From: Geobacteraceae bacterium
Lineage (GTDB): Bacteria; Desulfobacterota; Desulfuromonadia; Geobacterales; Geobacteraceae
Length of the DNA: 64,000 nucleotides
Assembly (NCBI GenBank): GCA_023701365.1
Contig: JAMPXD010000001.1
Coordinates: 1 to 64,000 of the forward strand
Reading direction: 5' to 3'
This document shows, in pieces, positions 2,245 to 15,387 of the stretch. Position numbers and translations under genes: made by a program. The notes under the pieces were generated by a model. It worked only from the letters and a program-made list of their open reading frames with translations, was not told the origin of the DNA and did not search any database. Each line of letters begins with the position of its first letter. Position 1 is the stretch's first letter.

Positions 2245-3327
2245 TCACTCGAAATCGGGAACCAGACCGCAGCGCACGATGATCTCCCGCGCCATCCGGT
2301 CAAGGGGAACCACCTTGTCCACCAGCCCGGTGGCTATCGCCTCACGGGGCATGCCGAAAACGACCGCCGATTCCTCGGATTCAGCCAGCACTTCGCCGGC
2401 TGCCCCCTTTACAGCCCTGACCCCCTTGCTCCCGTCATTCCCCATCCCGGTAAGAACGACCGCCAGCAACCGTGCCCCGTAAATGGCCGCCAGCGAAGCG
2501 AGCATGACGTCCACCGAAGGGACGTACCTGTCCTCGGGGGAGGGCTGCACCACCCTGGCCACCACATCGCCGGCTGACTGCTGGAAGATCAGGTTCCGGC
2601 CGCCGGGGGCGATCAGCGCCTTCCCCGGCAGCAACAGATCGCCATCCTTCGCCTCCTTCACCTCAAAAAGGGATGACCGGTTCAGCCGCTCGGCAAAGGC
2701 CCTGGTAAAGCCGGGCGGCATATGCTGGGAGACTGCGACGGCAAAGGGGGACTCCCCCGGCAGGGAGGACAATATCCCCTGCAGCGCCGGCGGACCGCCG
2801 GTGGAAGCGCCGATGGCCACAACCTGGATCGGCGACTTGCCGCTGGCAGCAGGGGTGGCCATGACCGGCTTCTTTTTTTTCCTGCCCGGTTCAGGGGAAA
2901 GCAGCGGTTCCCGCTTCAGGATCCGGTCCATCTTGAGGTTGAAGACGCTCCGCACCTTTTCCTGCAGGTCCCCGGTTATCTTCAGGAGCTCGTCGGAGAT
3001 ACGGCTGGTCGGCTTGGCGATGAAATCGACCGCGCCGAGCTCAAGAGCCTTGAAGACCCGCTCATCCTCGCTCTTGGCGCTGATGATGATGACCGGGGTC
3101 GGACAGGAATTCATGACGATCCGCAGCAGGGTAAAGCCGTCCATGCGGGGCATTTCCAGATCGAGGGTGACCAGGTCGGGCTTCAGATCGATAATCTTGC
3201 GGATCCCCTCCTCGCCGTCGGCGGCATATCCCACGACCTGGACATTCTCAACACCCTCCAGCATCTTGGTAATGGTGCGCCGGTTGTAGGCCGAATCATC
3301 GATCACCACCACCCGTATCTTCCTCAC
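2245..3327 (-). CDS. cheB: Chemotaxis protein-glutamate methylesterase CheB
   Basis: Removes methyl groups from receptor glutamates and deamidates glutamines. The ~360-residue product has an N-terminal receiver (D10/D11, acceptor D56) and a C-terminal esterase domain with the catalytic Ser in [10 protein letters not shown], His in SQHMPPGF and Asp in [10 protein letters not shown] start it at a GTG (3327) with GGAGG six bases upstream; the open frame runs further, but that extension is only an overlap with cheR. The GTGA overlap with the cheR stop implies translational coupling. Confidence 0.95.
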
Positions 3328-4196
3328 AGGAGACCTCCCGTGGCAAGGGGTCTTTGATACACCATGTCGTTCTTCAGGTGCTTGAGGGCAAAGGCGGTGG
3401 AAATATTCATGAGCGATTCCGAATGGCCGAGGAGGAGATAACCCCCCTCGTGGAGCATCCGGTAAAAAGTCTCGATCACCCTTTTCTTGGCGCTCTGGTC
3501 GAAATAGATGATGACATTGCGGCAGAAGATCACATCCATCCTTCCCAGCAGGGCCAGGCGGTTCTGGTCGAACAGGTTCAGGTGGCTGATGGTCACGAGC
3601 TCCCGCACCTCGTCGTTCACCCGGAAACCACCTTCCTGTTCCTGAAAAAAACGCCTGATGTAGCGCTCTTCCGTGGTCCGGAAGGAAGACTTGCCGTACA
3701 CCGCCTTGCGCGACTGCTGGAGGACCCTCTGGCTGATGTCGGTCCCGATTATCTCCACCCGCCACCCCTGAAAGCAGCCCATTTCCATGATCAGCATGGC
3801 GATGGTGTAGGGCTCCTCCCCGGTGGAGCAGCCGGCGCTCCAGATCCTGAGCGATTTTTCGCCCCGCAGCTCCTTCGCCGCCTTCAGCTCGGGGAGGATC
3901 TCCTCGGTCAGCGCCCTCAACTGGAACGCTTCCCGGAAAAAATAGGTCTCGTTGGTGGTCAGGACGTCCATCAGATCGGACAGTTCCTGGTCCTTTTTTC
4001 TGTCGTACTTCAGAAAGTGGTGGTAGTCCCTGAAGCCCTGCAACTGATGGAGCGGCAGCCTCCTGGCGAGCCGTTTTTCCAGGAGGTACCTGGTATCGCT
4101 GTCGAAGAAGAGGCCGCAATGGCTGTAAATGATGTCCCGGATCAGGCGGAACTCTTCTTCGCTCATCTGTATTTCCGGTTCGGAAAAATACATCAC
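3324..4196 (-). CDS. cheR: Chemotaxis protein methyltransferase CheR
   Basis: S-adenosylmethionine-dependent methyltransferase acting on receptor glutamates. The 290 residues show the N-terminal helical domain with [10 protein letters not shown], the SAM-binding [20 protein letters not shown] and the [19 protein letters not shown] segments typical of CheR. No C-terminal TPR is present. The start is GTG at 4196, overlapping the previous stop, or ATG at 4193. The CheR/CheB pair implies that a methylated receptor exists elsewhere in the genome, since none is in this window. Confidence 0.95.
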
Positions 4197-6208
4197 CGCA
4201 GCCTATCCATTATGTCAGCTATCGTTTCCTTGACCAGATCGTCGGACTCGGTCTCAAGCGCGGAGCGCAGGCGGGGGAGCGAGCCGGCCCCCCTCTGCTC
4301 GGCCATGGCATTGATGAAAGTGCGCCGCACGTCCCAATGGGGATGGGCCAGGAGCTGCTCCCCGTATGCGTCGATCCAGTCATCTCCGTCACGGGCAAGG
4401 ATCCCGATGGCAGCCTTGACCACCTCTTCATCACAGTTTTCCAGCCCCTTCCGGACGATCCCCGGGACCGCGTCACCGCCGATCTCCGCCACTGCCTCCA
4501 GGGCGGAAATAAGCTCAAGCCCTGCCGAGCTCTCAAGCACCCCGACAATCGCCGGCAGCGCCCTGTCGCTCCCCACCCTGCCGAGGCTCTTGAGCGCCGC
4601 GCATTTCACCCAGGTATCTTCATCGTTCAGGGCCAGAAGCAGCGGCTCAAGGACGGCGTCTCCGCCGATATCACCGAGTGCGGCGGCGGTGGCGCTCCGG
4701 ACATCGACATCCTCATCGGCGAGCGCCATGACCAGATGGGGAACGGCGGCGGACGTTTTCAGCTCCGCCAGGGAAGCGACCGCCGCCTTGCGCACCATGG
4801 CGTCCTCATCCTTGATCAGGAGGGAGAGCTTCTCTGCGTCGCCCAGGGCGGCAAACAGAATGGCGGCAAAGCGGCGCTGTTCGGCGGGCTTGGCGCCGGT
4901 GAGCTCGAGAGCTACCCGGAGCACCGCCCCCCTGTCAACTTCGGCCAGCCGGGAGAGTGCTTCGACAGCCCCCTCCCGCACAGCGGGCTCCCCGTCCTCC
5001 AACAGCCGGACGACATCGTCGATGAGAGCGGACAGCCCTGTCTTGCCGGCGGCCAGCACCGAGACCTTGCGCAGCATGGGGGTCTCGCCGCGCATCCCTT
5101 CGCGCAGAAGCGCTGCACACCCGCCGTAGCAGAGCTCGCCGCACACGTAGGCGATAAAGCAGCGCTCTTCCTCATCGGCAGTGGGAAAGGCGCTGAGCAG
5201 GGAAGCAGTGCCCGCTTCCCCCATGTTCCGGAAGGCGAGCAGGCAGTGCTTGCGCAGCCTCTCCTCGCGGCAGCCGTGCAGAAGCCGGGCAACTGCCCGC
5301 TCGTCGCCGATGAGCCCGAGGATCTTCACGATCGCCTCTTTCAGCCCCCTGTCGTGCCCCTCCATCGAGGCAAGGAGCCCATCCACGAAGGGGGAGCCGG
5401 CCAGTTCCCTGAGCCCCGCGTCCGCCAGCCGGGCGGCAAGGTCGGCGGGGAGGCGCTCCCGCACCTTGACCAGGGCGCACGCAGCCGACTCACGGGCGTT
5501 CCTGACTCTTTCCTTGAGACCCTCGATCAGCAACGGCACCGCTTCAGCACCGCCGATGGCGCCGAGACAATCGAACACCGCTTTTTTCAGGAGGTTTTCA
5601 CCGGCCAGGGGAGCAACAAGATCGAGCGGCACCGGCCTGCCAATCCTGCTCAGCGCCTCGAGAACGGTAAAGCGCAACCACACATCATTTATTGCCAGGC
5701 TCCGAACGAGGTGCGGAACCGCCTGGGGATCGGCGATCTTGCCGAGGTTCTCCGCCGCCGCTGCGCTCACGTTCGGGTCAGGATCGTCGAGCGCCTTTAT
5801 CAGCAGGGGAACGGCAGCGGCAGCACCGACTGTCCCGAGGATGTCGATGACAAATTTACGGACGTCATGATCGGCATCGTTGATGTGCCGGGAAAGGGTC
5901 GGCACAGCCAGGGCTCCCAGCCTTTCCAGTGCCTCGACCGCCGAGTTGCGCAGCCCGGCGTTATCGTGGGCGGCCAGCATGGCGACCAGGGTCTCCATGA
6001 CCTCCCCCCCTACCGCGCCCGCCAGCAGGGCCTCGACCGCCTCCTTGCGGACCCGCCAGCTCCCGTCCCCCATGGCAGTGAACAGGCTGCCCTGCACGTC
6101 CGCCAGGGGATAGGCTGCCAGCCCGACCACGGCAAGTCTGCGCGTCTCTTCGTCAGGAGACCGGAGTTGCCCGGCCAGTATCTCTCTCTTGTCCACTATC
6201 ATCTCCAT
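4193..6208 (-). CDS. HEAT-repeat protein in chemosensory operon
   Basis: About 670 residues made almost entirely of ~31-residue HEAT/PBS-lyase-like helical repeats (recurring patterns such as [20 protein letters not shown] and [14 protein letters not shown]). No catalytic domain, signal peptide or membrane segment is seen. Such solenoids usually bind protein partners. The frame is open upstream to 6289, but I prefer a start near 6208 (ATG) or 6196 (GTG after GGAG), because the longer form overlaps the upstream gene by 32 bases. It lies between the zinc-ribbon receiver protein and cheR, so a scaffold role in the signalling array is likely. Confidence 0.8.
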
Positions 6209-6257
6209 CGGTTGCGCAACAGCGTCGGAGCGGTCACAGGAGGTGACCCTGCTTTCG

Positions 6258-7232
6258 TCACAGGCCGAATTCCCGCCTTTTCTTGGCAAGGAGCTCCTCG
6301 AAGGCGTCCTCCAGGTAGGAGGTCACCTCCCGTATCTCCTCTGCTACCCGGCGCAGGTAGAGTGCCCTCCCCTCCCGGATGTCGTCAGCCAGGAGCTCGT
6401 AGAAAGTACCGCTGCGCACCCCCTCCTCCACCTTCGCCTGATTGTAGAGGATGATATCGGAAACGATGATCCGGGCAAGCCGTTTCGCCTTCTTGTGGGC
6501 CTCTGGGAGCTCCGGCGCGGCCGGGGCCGGCGCAGCCGAGGTTTCCTGCTCTTCAGACCGCTTCAGCTCCTCGCGGACAGCCTCCTGGGCGGCGAGCTCC
6601 CGCATGGAAGGCCACTCAGGCGCGGCCTGCCCCTCCTCTTCGGCCGGCTGCTTCTCCTCCGGCGGCGCCTCGACCGGTTTCTGCCCGGAAACCAGCCGGT
6701 AGATCATGGCTGCCAGCGAATCGGGGATGTGGTGCTTTTCGATGTATTCGTCGGCCCCGTAGAGGGAATTGGGCAACCGCTTATATCTCGTCTTGTCATA
6801 GATGGAGGCGATGAGAATCAGCCGGACCGACGAGAGGGCCGGATTTTTCCTGACCGCCTCGCACACCTCGAATCCGTACATGGAGGGTAGCGCCACATCG
6901 AGCAGCACCACATCCGGCTTTTGCTGCTCGATTGCCGTCAGCGCGGCCCTGCCGTCGTTATAGGAAAACAGGTCAAAAGGCTCCGTTGCCAAAACCTTTT
7001 GCACCGCACTGCAGAATGCCGGACTCTCGTTTGCCACAACCACCCTGATTCTGTCGGCGGCCGGCGGGACGGCGGGGCTGGGCAGCGCCACGGGGGGAGG
7101 CGGTGGCGCCCCCTTCCGGACAACCCTGAAAATGGTGCGGCATTTGCTGCAGCGGAGCTTAACCCCGTCGGTTCCCACCTTTTGTTCATCAAAACTGAAT
7201 TTTGTCTTGCAGGAGGGACAGGCGATCAGCAT
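6258..7232 (-). CDS. Zinc-ribbon and receiver-domain protein
   Basis: A 324-residue protein. An N-terminal zinc ribbon (C5, C8, C28, C31; MJ0042/zinc_ribbon_5 type) is followed by a proline-rich linker, a receiver domain (~residues 60-180), a charged Ala/Glu/Pro-rich linker and a helical C-terminal segment (~245-320). In the receiver the usual acidic pair is reduced (VVANES), but the acceptor Asp in VVLLDVALPS remains, so phosphorylation is possible but may be atypical. AAAGGA lies before the ATG. The zinc ribbon suggests a protein- or nucleic-acid-binding output. Confidence 0.8.
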   Translation of the reverse strand: MLIACPSCKTKFSFDEQKVGTDGVKLRCSKCRTIFRVVRKGAPPPPPVALPSPAVPPAADRIRVVVANESPAFCSAVQKVLATEPFDLFSYNDGRAALTAIEQQKPDVVLLDVALPSMYGFEVCEAVRKNPALSSVRLILIASIYDKTRYKRLPNSLYGADEYIEKHHIPDSLAAMIYRLVSGQKPVEAPPEEKQPAEEEGQAAPEWPSMRELAAQEAVREELKRSEEQETSAAPAPAAPELPEAHKKAKRLARIIVSDIILYNQAKVEEGVRSGTFYELLADDIREGRALYLRRVAEEIREVTSYLEDAFEELLAKKRREFGL

Positions 7233-7262: not shown

Positions 7263-7739
7263 TTAATTCCGGGTCACATCCATGCGGTTCAACTCGTCCG
7301 ATTCGCGATCGGAGAGAATCCTGTCAAGGTTCAGGAGCATGACCATGGCATCCCCGGCAAGGCAGACCCCCACCAGATATTCCGCGCCGACGCCGCCGGC
7401 CACCCGGGGGGGTTGCTTTATATCCCTGACAGGGACGGAGATGACTTCGGTGACCTCGTCAACGACCAGTCCCAGCACCTGACTCCCGACCTTGACGATC
7501 AGGAGCCTGGTATCCCGGTTGTGGGGAGCAACGGGGAGATCAAACCTCTTGCGCAGGTCTACTACCGGGATGACAGTGCCGCGCAGGTTCAGCACCCCCT
7601 CCACGAAGCCGGGGGACTTGGGGAGGTTCGCCAGCTTTTGCAGCCTGATAATCTCTTTGATGCGCATGATGTCGGCCGCGTACAAATCTTCACCGAGCCG
7701 AAAACAGGCAATCTGAATTTCATGGATATCCGTGGTCAT
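7263..7739 (-). CDS. cheW: CheW coupling protein
   Basis: A 158-residue single CheW domain (IQIACFRLGEDLYAADIM near the N-terminus, then NLRGTVIPVVDLRKRF and VVDEVTEVI), which would link receptors to the CheA P5 domain. I chose the ATG at 7739, preceded by AAGGGG, rather than the TTG just upstream. It is the second CheW in this operon; the other carries a long N-terminal extension. Two different CheW proteins in one operon suggest two coupling surfaces or two receptor classes. Confidence 0.92.
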   Translation of the reverse strand: MTTDIHEIQIACFRLGEDLYAADIMRIKEIIRLQKLANLPKSPGFVEGVLNLRGTVIPVVDLRKRFDLPVAPHNRDTRLLIVKVGSQVLGLVVDEVTEVISVPVRDIKQPPRVAGGVGAEYLVGVCLAGDAMVMLLNLDRILSDRESDELNRMDVTRN

Positions 7740-7754
7740 CAAAGCCCCTTGTCT

Positions 7755-8126
7755 CTACCTGGAGAGAAGTTCCTGGATGGTGTCCAGGACCTTCGACGAT
7801 TTGAAAGGCTTGGTGATGTAGGCATCGCTGCCTACCTGCTGGCCGCGCGCGAAGTCCTGGCTGTTCTTCTTGGCCGTCAGCATCACCACCGGGATGTGAC
7901 GGGTGTCCGGATTCTCCTTGATCTGCCGGCAGACCTCGAAACCGTCCATCTCGGGGAGCATGATGTCGAGAATCACCAGATCGGGCCTGTTCAAGCGAAC
8001 CTCCTCCAGTGCGGCCCTGCCGTCCATGACCCCGGTGACGTTGTACCCCTTCGAGGAGAGGAGGATGCTCTCCAGCTTCAACAAGCTCTCTTCATCTTCC
8101 ACGATAAGTATCTTGTTCTTCGCCAT
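7755..8126 (-). CDS. Single-domain response regulator
   Basis: A 123-residue CheY/PilH-like receiver with E10/D11, acceptor D54 in LVILDIMLP, and the conserved VVMLTAK and TKPF segments. The start at ATG 8126 (MAKNKILIVEDEES) is supported by AAAGGGG six bases upstream; the frame is open a little further. It lies between the two cheW genes and is probably an alternative phosphate acceptor of CheA, but a role as motor regulator cannot be assumed because no motor genes are nearby. Confidence 0.9.
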   Translation of the reverse strand: MAKNKILIVEDEESLLKLESILLSSKGYNVTGVMDGRAALEEVRLNRPDLVILDIMLPEMDGFEVCRQIKENPDTRHIPVVMLTAKKNSQDFARGQQVGSDAYITKPFKSSKVLDTIQELLSR

Positions 8127-8146
8127 AGCAAACCCCTTTCGCTGGA

Positions 8147-8908
8147 TCAACCGAGGGTCAGATCGAGGATCTTCTCCTGATTGAGCAATATCAGCATCTG
8201 CCCGTCAAACCGCCCTATGCCGCCGACAAAGTCCCGGTCGATGCCGTCAAGCACTGCCGGCGGCTTTTCAATGGTCGCCGCGGCGATCCGCACGACCTGG
8301 ATCACCTCGTCCACCAGTATCCCGAAAAACTCCTCGCCCCTTTTCAGGACGACTATCCGTTCCTTCGCCGATTTTTCGGCGCCGGGGAGCCCCAACCTGA
8401 GCCGCATGTTGAAGACAGGAATGATGATGCCGCGCAGCGAAAGGACTCCGGAAACGAATGCGGGGGCACGGGGGACCTCGGTGACCGCGCGCGGCTTGAT
8501 GATCTCCTTGATCTCCATGATGTTGATGGCGTAAATCTCGGAAGAAACCCTGAAGCAGAGAAACTCCCGGAACTCTTCGTTCCCCGCCTCGGCGGCCGCA
8601 GCGGCGTCCGCAAACGCCACCTCGTCGGCAAGAGCTGTTTCCCGGCCGGCCAGCAGAACCGCCAGGGGATCGAATACCGCCGGCGCCTCCCCACCGGCCC
8701 TGACAGGTCCGGCTACAGGCTCCTCCAGCGGAGGGGCGAAGCCGGACCACGGGTCGGCCGGAGGCGCAACCGGTGCAACCGGCGCGACCAGTTGCACAGG
8801 CGCCAGATCCTCTTCGACCGGCTCGGCTTCCCGAGAAAGGACGACGGGACGGCCGAGGTCCGCTTTCTTATCCTGCTGCGCCTTTTTTCGGAGTTCCGCC
8901 AGATTCAT
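8147..8908 (-). CDS. cheW: CheW-domain protein with long N-terminal extension
   Basis: A 253-residue protein. Residues ~115-250 form a CheW domain (EFLCFRVSSEIYAINIMEIK, LSLRGIIIPVFNMR, LVDEVIQVV). The first ~110 residues are low-complexity Ala/Pro/Val/Glu-rich sequence, probably an unfolded linker. The final codons overlap the possible upstream extension of the next gene. Extended CheW proteins of this type could reach between array components. GAGGACGAAGG precedes the ATG. Confidence 0.88.
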   Translation of the reverse strand: MNLAELRKKAQQDKKADLGRPVVLSREAEPVEEDLAPVQLVAPVAPVAPPADPWSGFAPPLEEPVAGPVRAGGEAPAVFDPLAVLLAGRETALADEVAFADAAAAAEAGNEEFREFLCFRVSSEIYAINIMEIKEIIKPRAVTEVPRAPAFVSGVLSLRGIIIPVFNMRLRLGLPGAEKSAKERIVVLKRGEEFFGILVDEVIQVVRIAAATIEKPPAVLDGIDRDFVGGIGRFDGQMLILLNQEKILDLTLG

Positions 8909-8926: not shown

Positions 8927-9727
8927 TTAGATGGAGAGCTCATCCTTCAACCCTTCGATGATGGCCCCGTCAATCCATGCCGCCTCCCTGCCGAACCCTT
9001 CCAGCAGGGCGTTGGTGGCTATGATATTGATCCTGCGGGGGACCCCGCCGGAAAGCTCGAAGATCCCCTGAACCGCGTCGGGAGAAAAAAGACCGGCGCT
9101 CCCCCCTGCCACCTCCATCCTGAAGTCGAGATACTCCAGGGTTTCCTCCGGGTCGAGCGGGCTCAGGTGATAGTTGATGGCTATCCGCTGCCGGAACGGC
9201 TCATAGACGGGAGCTGCGAGAATCTTGCGCAGCTCCGGCTGCCCCATGATGATCATGCTCAGAAGATTGCGGTCATCGAGCTGAAAATTGGTGAGCAGCC
9301 TGATCTCTTCGAAAATCTCCCGGCCAGGCACCAGCTGCGCCTCGTCAATGACGAACACCGGGCAGCAATCCTCCTGGTGAAAACGGTAGAGCGCCTCGGT
9401 AATCTCCCGCAGCAGCTCATCCTTGCCGCTGGCAGGTGTTGTCACCTGGAGCCCCCTGGCAACCCCGCGCAGAAACTCCATGACGTTCAGCCGCGGGTTG
9501 AAGATGAAGCTGAAATGATAGCCGTCCCCCATGGAATCCATGAGCGCCCGGGAAATGGTGGTCTTGCCGCAGCCGATCTCGCCGGTCAGCAGGGCGATCT
9601 CGCGCTCCTCGATCACGTACTGCAGGCGCGCCAGTGCCTCCTGGTGCCCCCTGCTCAGATAGAGGAAACGGGGGTCAGGGGTCTTGCTGAACGGTTTTTC
9701 CCGCAGGCCGTAGAATTCTTTGTACAT
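8927..9727 (-). CDS. ExeA/GspA-type AAA ATPase
   Basis: A 266-residue P-loop ATPase of the ExeA/TniB/MSHA-MshM family. The N-terminus YKEFYGLREKPFSKTPDPRF is diagnostic, followed by Walker A GEIGCGKTT (~residues 50-58), Walker B CPVFVIDEAQ and a C-terminal AAA lid. The peptidoglycan-binding and membrane segments of full-length ExeA are absent, so this is a soluble ATPase. Its place between cheA and cheW is unusual for chemosensory operons and may mean ATP-driven assembly or disassembly of the array or of an envelope machine. Confidence 0.85.
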   Translation of the reverse strand: MYKEFYGLREKPFSKTPDPRFLYLSRGHQEALARLQYVIEEREIALLTGEIGCGKTTISRALMDSMGDGYHFSFIFNPRLNVMEFLRGVARGLQVTTPASGKDELLREITEALYRFHQEDCCPVFVIDEAQLVPGREIFEEIRLLTNFQLDDRNLLSMIIMGQPELRKILAAPVYEPFRQRIAINYHLSPLDPEETLEYLDFRMEVAGGSAGLFSPDAVQGIFELSGGVPRRINIIATNALLEGFGREAAWIDGAIIEGLKDELSI

Positions 9728-9821: not shown

Positions 9822-11837
9822 TCATCCGTTGCCCCTGGTGGCCTCGTTGATGATCCCCCCCACGTCCAGGACGAGGATGGTCCGCTGGTCCCCCAGGTCT
9901 GCAGCCCCCGAAATCCCCCTGAACCCCTTGAAGGTCTCCCCGATCGACTTGATCACGATGTCCTGCTGGCCGAGCAGATCGTCCACTGCTATGCCGAGCC
10001 GCTTTTCGGCGACCCCCACCACCACCGCATAAAAAGAGTCACCCGTATCCGCAGTGCCGTCCAGTTCGAAGAAGCTCCCCAGCCGCAACAGCGGCAGGGT
10101 GGCATGGCGGAGCTGGATCACCTCTTTCCGTTCCACCGTGAGAACGTCCCTGCGCTCCACCATGATGGTCTCCTGCACCGAGGTGATTGGGATCGCGTAG
10201 GTCCGTCCGGCTGAGGCGATGATCAATGCCTTGATGATGGCGAGGGTGATCGGCAGGGTTATGGTGACGCGGCAGCCCGCCCCCGCCCTGGTCTCGATAT
10301 CCACCATCCCGGAAACCGCGGCGATGTTGTTCTTTACCACGTCCATCCCGACGCCCCGGCCGGAAATCTCGCTCACCTTGTCGCTGGTGGAGAAACCGGG
10401 GAGAAAGAGAAAATCGAGGGCGTCCCGGTCGGAAACCGCGTCGACGTTCGCGACCAGCCCCTTCTCCAGCGCCTTGCGCTTCACCTTGGCCAGGTCGATC
10501 CCCCTGCCGTCGTCCTCCACCTCGATGACGACGTGGTTCCCCTTCTGGAAGGAGGAGAGCCTGATCGTCCCCTTCTCCTCCTTCCCATGCAGGAGCCGCT
10601 CCTCCGGGGTCTCGATGCCGTGGTCGATGGCGTTCCTGATGATGTGCATCATCGGATCGGAGATATCCTCGATGATCAGCTTGTCCAGCTCGGTGTCGGC
10701 GCCGAACATCTTCAGCTCGACCTTTTTCCCCTGTTCCCGGGAAATCTTCCGGACGATCCGGGACATCTTCTCGAACAGCTGTCCGACCGGGATCATCCGG
10801 ATCTCCATGACCCCTTTCTGCAGATCGGTCAGCTTCCTCTCCAGCCCCTTGGCCGCCTTGGAAAGCTCAAGGGAGAGGGTGGAGAAGCCGTCACGCCTCA
10901 TCCGGAGCGTAAGGTCGGCGATGGTCGAATGGCAGAGGACCAGTTCGCCGACGATGTTCATCAACTCGTCAAGCTTCGCTATATCGACCCGCACCGTCTG
11001 ACTGAAGCTTTTGGCGGTCAGCGCGGTATCCTCGCCGGCCGCCGGCAGGGACTCCGCCGGCTCGGGAACGGCCGGCCGGCCAGCCGTGTCGAGCCGGGTA
11101 ACGGCGACGTTCTCCCCTTCCACCATGGCGGCTACTTCCACGACATCCTTGTCGGAGCCGTACAGGATCTCGAAATCTATGCAGAGGCCGAGCCCCCCCC
11201 CCGAACTCGGCAGGGTGCTGATCACCTCCCCCTCCCTCTTCAGGATATCGGTGAGCTCCCCCAGGTCCTGGTCGAAGGTGGCGAGATTGAACGAGGCGCG
11301 GATCGAATAAATCCCCCGCCCCCTCTTGGCATTCTCCAGAAGCCGGTGCTCTTCGTACTCGGTCAGGGTGTTGAGCACCTTGGCGGGGAGCCCGAGCCTG
11401 GCCAGCGGTGAAGAGAGGTCGGTTATCCGGGCCGCGGCGCTGCAGGAATTTATCCGGGCCACCGCCTGGGCGACCGTCTGCGCCTCGGCTGTCTCCTTCC
11501 CCGCACCCCTCACGAGGTTTCCCATCAGGTCCATGGAGTCGAAGAGCACACCCATGGTCCCCTGGTCGAGGGAGACCCGGCCGAGACGGAGCGAATCGAG
11601 GAGGTTTTCCAGGTTGTGGGCCAGCTCGGCGATCTCCGCAAAGCCGAACATCCCGGCGAGCCCCTTGAGGGAGTGGGCGCCGCGGAAAACGGAGTTGACA
11701 AGCTCCGGTCTGCAATCCCCGCTCTCGGCGCAGTCACTGAGGCCGACCAGATCGAGGCTCAGTTGATCGATGATTTCCTCAGCCTCCGCCAGAAAGTCCG
11801 CGACGGCTTTACCCAGTTTGTCATTGGCATCGGTCAT
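9822..11837 (-). CDS. cheA: Chemotaxis histidine kinase CheA
   Basis: Autophosphorylating kinase that passes phosphate to the CheY and CheB receivers. The 671 residues contain an HPt (P1) domain with phospho-His H55 in FRGAHSLKG, a P2-like linker region, the P3 dimerisation helix (LDELMNIVGELVL), a HATPase domain with the N-box IIRNAIDHGIE and G-box EVEDDGRGID, and a C-terminal CheW-like P5 domain. ATG 11837 gives the family N-terminus MTDANDKLG; the frame is open 15 codons further. A run of ten G (11193-11202) encodes Gly codons in frame near residue 213, between P1 and P3. Confidence 0.95.
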   Translation of the reverse strand: MTDANDKLGKAVADFLAEAEEIIDQLSLDLVGLSDCAESGDCRPELVNSVFRGAHSLKGLAGMFGFAEIAELAHNLENLLDSLRLGRVSLDQGTMGVLFDSMDLMGNLVRGAGKETAEAQTVAQAVARINSCSAAARITDLSSPLARLGLPAKVLNTLTEYEEHRLLENAKRGRGIYSIRASFNLATFDQDLGELTDILKREGEVISTLPSSGGGLGLCIDFEILYGSDKDVVEVAAMVEGENVAVTRLDTAGRPAVPEPAESLPAAGEDTALTAKSFSQTVRVDIAKLDELMNIVGELVLCHSTIADLTLRMRRDGFSTLSLELSKAAKGLERKLTDLQKGVMEIRMIPVGQLFEKMSRIVRKISREQGKKVELKMFGADTELDKLIIEDISDPMMHIIRNAIDHGIETPEERLLHGKEEKGTIRLSSFQKGNHVVIEVEDDGRGIDLAKVKRKALEKGLVANVDAVSDRDALDFLFLPGFSTSDKVSEISGRGVGMDVVKNNIAAVSGMVDIETRAGAGCRVTITLPITLAIIKALIIASAGRTYAIPITSVQETIMVERRDVLTVERKEVIQLRHATLPLLRLGSFFELDGTADTGDSFYAVVVGVAEKRLGIAVDDLLGQQDIVIKSIGETFKGFRGISGAADLGDQRTILVLDVGGIINEATRGNG

Positions 11838-11919: not shown

Positions 11920-12285
11920 TTATCCGAGATATTTCCGGATCAGCTCCTGCAGCTTCACGGGATGGAACGGCTTAACCAGGTATTCGTTGGCGCCGAGCGC
12001 CAGTCCCTTTTCCATGTCCTTTTCGCTCCCCTCGGTGGAAATGATGAAGAGGGGGATGGACTGGTAATTGGGGTTGTTCCTGACGTAGCTGATCAACTCC
12101 AGGCCGTTGATGTCGGGCATATTGATGTCGGTGATGATCAGGGCTACATTTTCCCGGGGGAGGAGACGCAATGCCTCGAAACCGCTCCCCGCCTCCACAA
12201 TCTCATATCCGTCCATGGCCTCGATGGTCGAGACCAGGAGAGACCGCATGGTCGCAGAATCTTCGGTGATCAGTATCTTTTTCAC
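11920..12285 (-). CDS. cheY: CheY-like response regulator
   Basis: A 121-residue receiver domain with E8/D9, phospho-acceptor D53 in LIITDINMPD, switch serine in FIISTEGS and Lys in LVKPFHP. It starts at GTG 12285 with GGAGGAAAC immediately upstream, and this start overlaps the stop of the preceding gene by four bases (GTGA). It lies directly upstream of cheA and is the best candidate for the dedicated CheY of this system. Confidence 0.93.
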   Translation of the reverse strand: MKKILITEDSATMRSLLVSTIEAMDGYEIVEAGSGFEALRLLPRENVALIITDINMPDINGLELISYVRNNPNYQSIPLFIISTEGSEKDMEKGLALGANEYLVKPFHPVKLQELIRKYLG

Positions 12286-13981
12286 GTTTCCTCCGAAAAA
12301 CTTCTTTCCTTCAGGCGACGCACCAGCAGGGCCTTCTCCATGGCCAGCCCCGCCTGGGAAAGAAATATTTCCAGCGCATCGGTGTCGCCGACGGGGGCTG
12401 TCCCGGGGAGGTTGTCGCCGTATAAAACGGCAACCACCTTCCCCTCGCTGATGATCGGGCCGAGGAAGACCTCGGCCGGGGCGCTTCCCCCCAGCTGGGA
12501 AAGGAGATAGCGGTTCCAGCCACTGTCATCCGGCTTCATCTTGACCGGTAGCTGGGATTCGATCACCCGGCGGAACAGGGAATCCTCACCCCGGGGTATC
12601 CGCAGGTTCCGCACCGATGAATCGGCAACTCCTTCACAGGCATCGATGCCGAACTGCCCCAGGCCGACTATCTCGTCCCGCTTGACCAGGAAGACAACCG
12701 CACGGTTCATGAACTCGGAGGCAAACCGGAGCACCAGGAGAATGATCCCCCCCCCAGCGCCGGTTCGTACAGCTCCTCGATCATCCCCCTGAGGAGAGAG
12801 ATGCCGGTGCTCTGCTGCGCGGGAGCGGCAGCCGGCGCCGGCTCCTCCCCCATCTCCAGGCGGAGTTCGTCGCCGATGTTGACCTTGTCGCTCCACTCCG
12901 ACGGGACTTCGCCGGATTCAATCCTCGCCAGCTGCTCCAGCAGCCTGTCGGCAAAGGAACCGAGGGAGGCGGGATCGCCGATTTCCACCCTGCGGGGCTT
13001 CATGATGAAGGCGAACCCAAGCCTGCGCACCTTCCGCTCGGCATCGCTGTTGTGGCAGTCCGCCATTGCCAGGGCCGGCAGGTCGGGGAAATTGTTGTGG
13101 ATCAACTCGAGCAGCTCCACCCCGCCGAGCACGCCGGAGCCGTCCATCCGCGGCATGATCAGATCTACCAGCACGGTCGGCCGGCGGCCGTCACGGTAGA
13201 GGGTGTCGATCCTGATCAGGGTCTCTTCGCTCTTTTTGCAGGCGGCAACGTGGTAGCCGCCTCCCTCCAGAAGGCGAACCAAAGCCGCTCGGGCAGTTGC
13301 ATCATCGTCCACCATCACCAGCAGCCGCTTTTCCTCGCCGGGAGGGGGAGAAACGGCGGCCGGTGGCGGGGTCTCGGCGAGATGGAAGGCGAAATCGTCG
13401 ATTTCATCAGGGGGGGGCGGCGGCGAACCGGTGGCAGCATCGCCGGCTTCGGCGGATTCGCCGCGGTGCCGCATCTCGTCGATGATCCTCGACCCTTCCA
13501 TGGCCAGGAACTGGGGGTTGAGACCCTGGTCCAGCATGAACTGCAACGGGTCCATCCGGATGGAGTCGCTCACCTCCACGCTTTCCTGCAGCTCGAAGTC
13601 GAAGGTCCCCTCCGACCAGGCGAACAGGGAATAGACCACATTTTCGATCTGCTCGCGGACCACCTCTTCGATGACGCTGTCGGCAATGCCGAAACTGGTG
13701 ATCAGGATCGTCCCGAGCCGCTCCCCGAACCCGCCCTGCTCCTGGAAGGCGAGCGCCTTCTTCAGGGTGCCGACGTCGAGGATACCCTTCTGGATCAGCA
13801 CCTCCCCCAGGTTCTGCTGGAACGTGCTGGAAGTGGCGCGCACAACCTGGCCCTGGCGGAACACCACCCTACCCTCGCGCCCCCTGCTATGAAGCGCGAG
13901 TATCCCGGATTTGCGGCTGAGGCTGACTATCTGCAGGATCTCGCCGAGGCCGAGGTCTTCCAAGTTTCCGACAAGGCTCAT
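12282..13981 (-). pseudogene. DUF4388-receiver-GAF-like gene split by a frameshift at a G9 tract
   Basis: First gene of the operon. The N-terminal frame (13981 to 12707, 424 codons) encodes a DUF4388 domain (MSLVGNLEDLGLGEILQIVS, ~1-110), a linker and a receiver (MVDDDATARAA, acceptor in VLVDLIMPRMDG), then ends shortly after a run of nine G (12747-12755) in EPALGGG. The next frame continues without a break as IILLVLRFASEFMNRAVVF and encodes a ~150-residue GAF-like domain to 12282. One inserted G or two deleted G would restore a ~566-residue protein. This may be a phase-off allele, a real inactivation or a sequencing error. Confidence 0.85.
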
Positions 13982-14061: not shown

Positions 14062-15387
14062 TTACGCCCCTTTTCCCCGCTCTTTGCCCTTAAAAAAGAG
14101 ACGTAGCGGGGTCCCGGTAAAACCGAAGGCTTCGCGGAGTTTGTTGGCGAGGTAGCGCTCGTAGGAGAAATGGATCCCCTCCGGCCTGTTGCTGAATACC
14201 ACGAAGGTCGGCGGCCTGGTCCCCACCTGGGTCGCGTAGTAGAGCTTGACCGGCCTCCCCTGGAACATCGGGGGCTGATGGCTTTCCACGGCATCGGCAA
14301 AGACCCTGTTGAGCTCGGCCGTCTGCACCCGTTTGCTGTACTGGGCCATGACCTTGTCCACTTCGGTGATGATCTGGCCGGTCCGCTGCCCCGACAGGGC
14401 CGAGACGAACAGGACCGGGGCAAAGGGGAGGTATTTGAACTCCATCCTGATCCTCTCCACGAACTTGCCGACGGTGGCGTTGTCCTTGCTGAGGGTGTCC
14501 CACTTGTTGACCACGAAGATGCAGGCGCGCCCCGCCTCATAGGCATAGCCGGCTATCTTGGTGTCCTGCTCGGTCACCCCCTCCTCGGCGTTCAGGACGA
14601 TCAGCACCACGTCGGCCCGCTCGATGCTGCGCAGCGCATCCACCACGCTGTACTTCTCGATCTTCTGGGTGGTCTTCCCCTTGCGCCTGATCCCCGCCGT
14701 GTCGATCAGCAGATAGGCCTTGCGGTTGCAGGTAAACGGGGTGTCGATCGAGTCCCGGGTGGTGCCGGGAGTGGGGTTGGCCACCACCCTTTCATAGCCG
14801 AGCAGCCGGTTGACCAGGGACGACTTCCCCACGTTGGGGCGACCGACCACCGCAATCCTGGTCACCTCCTCGTCCTCACCGGCGACGCCCCCTCTGGGAA
14901 GCGCCTTTACCACCTCATCCATCAGGTCGCCGACGCCGCGGTTATGTTCGGCGGAAACGGCGAACAGGTTGTCGACCCCGAGGCCGTAGAAGTCGCCGAT
15001 CCCCAGCTCCTGCCGGTCCCCCTCGATCTTGTTGATGATGTAGAAGACCGGCTTGTCCACCCGGCGGAGCATCTCCGCCACTTCCCGGTCGGCCGGGGTC
15101 AGGCCGTCCCTGCCGTCCATGACGAACAGGATCACGTCCGCCTCCTCGATGGCGAGCTGGGACTGTTCCCGCATCTGCTGCAACAGCCGGTCGCTCGTCT
15201 CCGGCTCGAAACCGCCGGTGTCGATCAGGATGAAGGGGACATCGAACCGGTCAACGTTGCCGTAGTTCCGGTCCCTGGTCACCCCGGGCTGGTCATCGAC
15301 CATCGCCTTGCGCCGGCCGTAAATCCTGTTGAAAAGGGTCGATTTCCCCACATTGGGGCGCCCCACTATTGCTACGATCGGTTTCAT
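14062..15387 (-). CDS. der: Ribosome-associated GTPase Der (EngA)
   Basis: Double GTPase needed for 50S subunit assembly. The 441 residues contain two Era-like G domains, each with its own P-loop ([14 protein letters not shown] near residue 8 and [14 protein letters not shown] near 183), G3 DTGG/DTAG and G4 NKIE/NKWD, followed by a KH-like C-terminal domain. The length is typical. AAGGAGATTC precedes the ATG. It follows era on the same strand, the usual arrangement in Geobacter. Confidence 0.97.

Follow-up and report, generated by a model that had tools for sequence, protein, structure and literature searches.

In Geobacter the closest described counterparts of the locus studied here are two accounts of chemosensory genes. 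The Geobacter beta-group che cluster was defined by Tran et al. 2008, as stated in the part of that paper drawn on here (PMC2577667). For the esn cluster of G. sulfurreducens, the part used of Chan et al. 2017 gives the order GSU2222-2221-2220 as esnC, ATPase and esnB, and reports that mutants lacking esnB or esnC grow less well on electrodes (PMC5585712). A 17-year evolution study of G. sulfurreducens reported no mutations in Esn genes (PMC13194489). Precedents for real switches at a G/C run are bvgS and the Campylobacter genes, for which strains or cultures were observed with differing tract lengths (PMC1891110, PMC8355987). With the terms that we used, a literature search turned up nothing relevant to phase variation in Geobacter.

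We analysed a stretch of 64,000 nucleotides (the window) from a draft genome of a Geobacteraceae bacterium (283 contigs, 90% complete). Table 1 lists the features of its chemosensory operon. The order der, split gene, cheY, cheA, ATPase, cheW, receiver, cheW is conserved in Geobacteraceae, and the operon contains cheA, cheW, cheB and cheR (the last two named by eye) without an mcp gene. It is thus the known Geobacter beta-group che cluster and, going by gene order only, probably the cluster called esn in G. sulfurreducens. The split gene would then, again by its place in the order, be equivalent to GSU2223-2224. The operon resembles the beta-group/esn cluster, as far as the parts drawn on of both accounts describe it (PMC2577667, PMC5585712), in having cheW, ATPase and cheA in the same order, cheR and cheB, no receptor gene in the cluster and a host in the Geobacteraceae. 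It differs in that the split gene is part of the operon here and is absent from those parts of the published accounts (PMC2577667, PMC5585712).

Table 1. Features of the chemosensory operon and its upstream neighbour, with positions in the window
Feature	Position	Strand	Basis
der (EngA) GTPase, upstream neighbour conserved in relatives	14062..15387	-	ORF; neighbour comparison
Split gene, upstream frame: DUF4388 + receiver	12707..13981	-	ORF, 424 aa; Pfam
G9 tract coding conserved Leu-Gly-Gly-Gly; one G short of open frame	12747..12755	-	sequence
Split gene, downstream frame: GAF-fold domain, C-terminal 154 residues	12282..12746	-	sequence comparison; Pfam; AlphaFold/Foldseek on orthologue
cheY-like receiver	11920..12285	-	Pfam E=1.8e-26
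G10 tract in cheA, residues SSGGGLGL, variable linker	11193..11202	-	sequence; in frame
cheA (Hpt, H-kinase_dim, HATPase, CheW)	9822..11837	-	Pfam
AAA_22 ATPase, position corresponds to GSU2221 in esn cluster	8927..9727	-	Pfam; order from the part used of PMC5585712
cheW 1	8147..8908	-	Pfam
Stand-alone receiver	7755..8150	-	ORF; neighbour comparison
cheW 2	7263..7742	-	Pfam
Zinc ribbon + receiver protein	6258..7232	-	Pfam
HEAT-repeat protein	4193..6289	-	Pfam
cheR-like methyltransferase	3324..4196	-	named by eye from sequence
cheB-like receiver + methylesterase, start approximate	2245..3330	-	named by eye from sequence

The sequence-only reading had proposed that the first gene of the operon is split at a tract of nine Gs. 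We confirmed this: the tract lies on the minus strand (C9 on the plus strand) at exactly the expected positions and the two frames meet there. In the upstream frame DUF4388 covers residues 5-170 (Pfam E=2.7e-29) and the receiver residues 222-329 (Pfam Response_reg, E=8e-8), and the frame runs into a stop 12 out-of-frame residues past the tract. The downstream frame, which contains an internal ATG, is open from the tract to a stop at 12282-12284. This stop overlaps the GTG start of cheY at 12285, and cheY has a strong ribosome-binding site of its own (GGAGG). One G more or two Gs fewer at the tract would be needed to restore the full frame. Compared with its own genome, the joined sequence of 566 residues aligned as two segments (residues 1-413 and 408-566) that meet at the tract. 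A codon-usage model trained on seed genes showed a clear frame jump at the same place with a gain of 13.5 nats. This was the strongest frameshift signal past the filter in the 404 kb of the genome that we surveyed, and the next one (10.6) was an ordinary gene end. Judged from the sequence, the DUF4388-receiver frame and the GAF frame are the halves of one protein of ~566 residues.

The downstream domain had been described as GAF-like, which held for the fold and less so for the profile score, as Pfam GAF_2 reached 21.4 bits, under the curated cut-off of 28.6. In an AlphaFold model of the C-terminal part of an orthologue (pLDDT 85) the best PDB matches found with Foldseek were GAF domains, with E-values down to 5.6e-8. 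The Gly-Gly-Gly of the tract sits between the first and the second GAF helix of this model, so that a truncated product would be without the whole GAF core.

In relatives the gene is generally one uninterrupted ORF of about 556-592 aa in which the domains follow each other in the same order, which bears out the claim of one ~566-residue protein. All 80 of the 80 orthologous loci, taken from other GTDB genomes, are in frame across the tract site. Orthologues that are also two separate genes had been named beforehand as a refutation; no relative carries two genes split here, in a comparison set in which the own genus is represented by one genome, and the one-gene reading stands. The one clear exception to single-ORF orthologues among the family relatives was found in G033 (L031, C7). 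We rejected it as a second case: the indel in this draft genome lies outside any homopolymer, ~70 codons further on at about residue 484. A few family members of the gene also lack the receiver; one orthologue of 394 aa (G004:C67:65536-66678) has the DUF4388 and GAF parts without a receiver between them.

The peptide L-G-G-G-I-I-L-L is conserved in most relatives with mixed Gly codons. The longest G run at the site is always in frame; its length ranges from 2-9 within the family to 1-9 across the wider set, mostly 2-6. We looked for a conserved long repeat at the tract site among the orthologues of relatives and found none. When identity in the C-terminal part is divided by that in the N-terminal part, the split gene gives 1.07 and other pairs give 1.03 +/- 0.10. 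The C-terminal part is thus as conserved as in intact orthologues, which indicates that the break is either young or not real. A genuine two-gene arrangement or a settled pseudogene in this lineage would agree with the two open frames and the internal ATG of the second, but we regard it as extremely improbable given this conservation and the complete lack of relatives with two genes split at the tract site. It is also very unlikely that the split is real and harmless because some full-length protein is made by RNA-polymerase slippage on the G9 or by a -1 ribosomal shift on G-GGG-GGG. By inspection such a -1 shift would yield exactly the conserved LGGGIILL peptide; however, relatives have plain in-frame codons here, no programmed slippery site is conserved, and neither the run nor the sequence downstream showed unusual RNA structure (z = -0.15).

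The genome-wide counts of G and C runs come from pattern searches and from the 404 kb of sequence; tracts of at least 10 were listed in full. GGG makes up 37% of the Gly codons in the genome. In 341 kb of coding sequence there were 89 runs of seven Gs, 32 of eight, 14 of nine and 3 of ten, where shuffling of synonymous codons predicts 54, 18, 6 and 1.7, respectively. Coding G runs of 7-10 therefore exceed the expectation by a factor of about 1.7 to 2.3, and the lengths that could switch do not stand out. The genome has 35 ten-G words, a usual number within the family. Among the 31 G/C tracts of at least 10 in the whole genome, 24 are in frame inside genes, 5 are intergenic or unclear and 2 break a gene, giving 2 broken tracts out of 26 in genes. 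The tracts in frame include those in valS, dnaK, ffh (eleven Gs), mreB, topA, nuoF, ispE, pgi and sucD (names by eye from translations). We thus observed no concentration of long tracts in non-essential surface or regulatory genes, as many are found in housekeeping genes, and as a class they do not resemble typical contingency loci. For the shorter class, the matches listed contain at least 38 other in-gene G9 tracts that keep the frame and no broken one. Breakage rises with tract length, which fits both biological slippage and errors in sequencing or assembly.

The two broken long tracts are a run of eleven Gs (G000 C17:990-1000, L044/L045) in a GAF-HisKA-HATPase histidine kinase, with HisKA upstream and HATPase downstream in another frame, and a C10 run (G000 C221:140-149, L229) in pilQ (AMIN, STN, Secretin_N) near a contig end. 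Four other candidate shifts at G tracts, in C47, C63, C80 and at mraZ-rsmH, were dismissed as ordinary gene junctions once the sequence had been read. Two further observations concern other kinds of break: a frameshift, with no homopolymer, that falls in the dimerisation motif of a histidine kinase (G000 C200:38439, L201), and a rhodanese-like frame that passes into cysteine-desulfurase-like sequence in another frame (G000 C82:46757, L198), possibly a remnant or a misassembly. The long tracts of two relatives were read as a control. In G009 no gene was broken. G007, an isolate with about 219x coverage, has a single clear break, where a run of ten Gs interrupts a carboxylase-like gene (L278, C11:174496). 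Such breaks hence also occur in the assembly of a pure culture.

The break in the split gene is, in our view, probably an incidental shortfall of one base, either a consensus error or a recent slip that was not under selection. Apart from the G9 tract the filtered survey gave hardly any frameshift. The assembly is therefore not generally error-prone, which tilts the evidence somewhat towards a real mutation, and an error, if it is one, would be confined to the longest runs. Another observation concerns the type of gene: the three broken genes (split gene, histidine kinase and pilQ) all belong to signalling or the cell surface, while most intact tracts lie in genes with housekeeping roles. This hints at real mutations that are tolerated, as blind error would have no such preference, though with three genes it decides nothing. 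We put the chance that the consensus of this draft genome is wrong at the run at somewhat less than even; sequencing error had already been named as a real alternative in the sequence-only reading. A replication slip that arose recently and without selection in the cells sampled is a possible but less probable cause.

The comparisons above show a single gene, a conserved peptide, a young break and a tract that is not conserved, whereas the cause of the shortfall and any functional effect are what we infer. One gene encoding a DUF4388-receiver-GAF protein heads this conserved Geobacteraceae chemosensory operon. This lineage has CTG followed by three GGG codons for the conserved Leu-Gly-Gly-Gly, from which one expects a G10 run; in the sequence it is one G short and the frame is lost. 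If the shortfall is real, the product would be a protein of 424 residues that keeps DUF4388 and the receiver and loses the whole GAF core, and cheY and cheA would still have their own start sites.

The sequence-only reading had suggested instead that slippage at the tract switches the full-length protein. Reversible slippage would then turn the GAF-bearing protein, and with it the chemosensory pathway, on and off. Several observations agree with this. A change of one base in tract length moves the split gene in or out of frame, the downstream frame is unspoiled and the break young, and there are two more broken tracts, in the histidine kinase and pilQ. G9-G10 is within the switching range of Campylobacter (PMC8355987), and the C6/C7 tract of bvgS is a precedent in a sensor kinase gene (PMC1891110). 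Against it, the repeat is conserved neither in the split gene nor in cheA, and none of the 80 orthologous loci shows an off state at the tract site. Tracts of similar length are in frame in valS, dnaK, ffh, mreB, topA and nuoF, where frequent switching would be costly. The genome also has MutS and MutL genes, whereas C. jejuni is without mismatch repair (PMC8355987); together with the long runs in essential genes this argues against frequent slippage. In P. acnes, another species whose tracts are mostly G/C, differences in length tracked the clades and accumulated slowly (PMC4746626). With long G tracts common, at about twice the shuffle expectation, in frame in essential genes and in a genome with mismatch repair, the proposed switch was not upheld. 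Phase variation is not supported by positive evidence beyond the run itself, and we consider it unlikely.

A wider version of the proposal made the whole chemosensory system phase variable through a second tract. The G10 tract in cheA was confirmed at exactly the positions proposed and is in frame, but it is not conserved: relatives have G runs of 2-9 at this position. With the repeat conserved in neither gene we could not maintain this claim. It is likewise very unlikely that in this species a small number of long G/C runs, located in genes for signalling or the cell surface (split gene, histidine kinase and pilQ), slip often enough to give mixed populations with and without esn-type chemosensory input. 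An incidental one-base shortfall is still the reading that we prefer.

If a switch were nevertheless true, it would extend tract-based phase variation to metal reducers of the Geobacter type, and to a system linked with growth on electrodes. As a caution, GC-rich genomes heavy in GGG are expected to show an occasional frame break at a G run, and such a break alone is no evidence of a switch. Compared with known tract systems, the locus is similar to bvgS of Bordetella pertussis (PMC1891110) in that a frame is lost at a G/C run within a signalling gene. For bvgS, however, both lengths were found in strains and mixed cultures together with a phenotype, whereas here there is one length in one draft genome. 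With the poly-G contingency genes of Campylobacter (PMC8355987) it shares intragenic G runs of similar length. The tracts of C. jejuni are hypermutable in the absence of mismatch repair (PMC8355987), in contrast to this genome, where repair genes are present and the tracts are spread across housekeeping genes. The study of Propionibacterium acnes (PMC4746626) demonstrated real variation with 90 genomes and Sanger checks, compared to one genome here, and is like the present case in that the tracts are mostly G/C, some of them shift frames and sequencing error is a stated concern.
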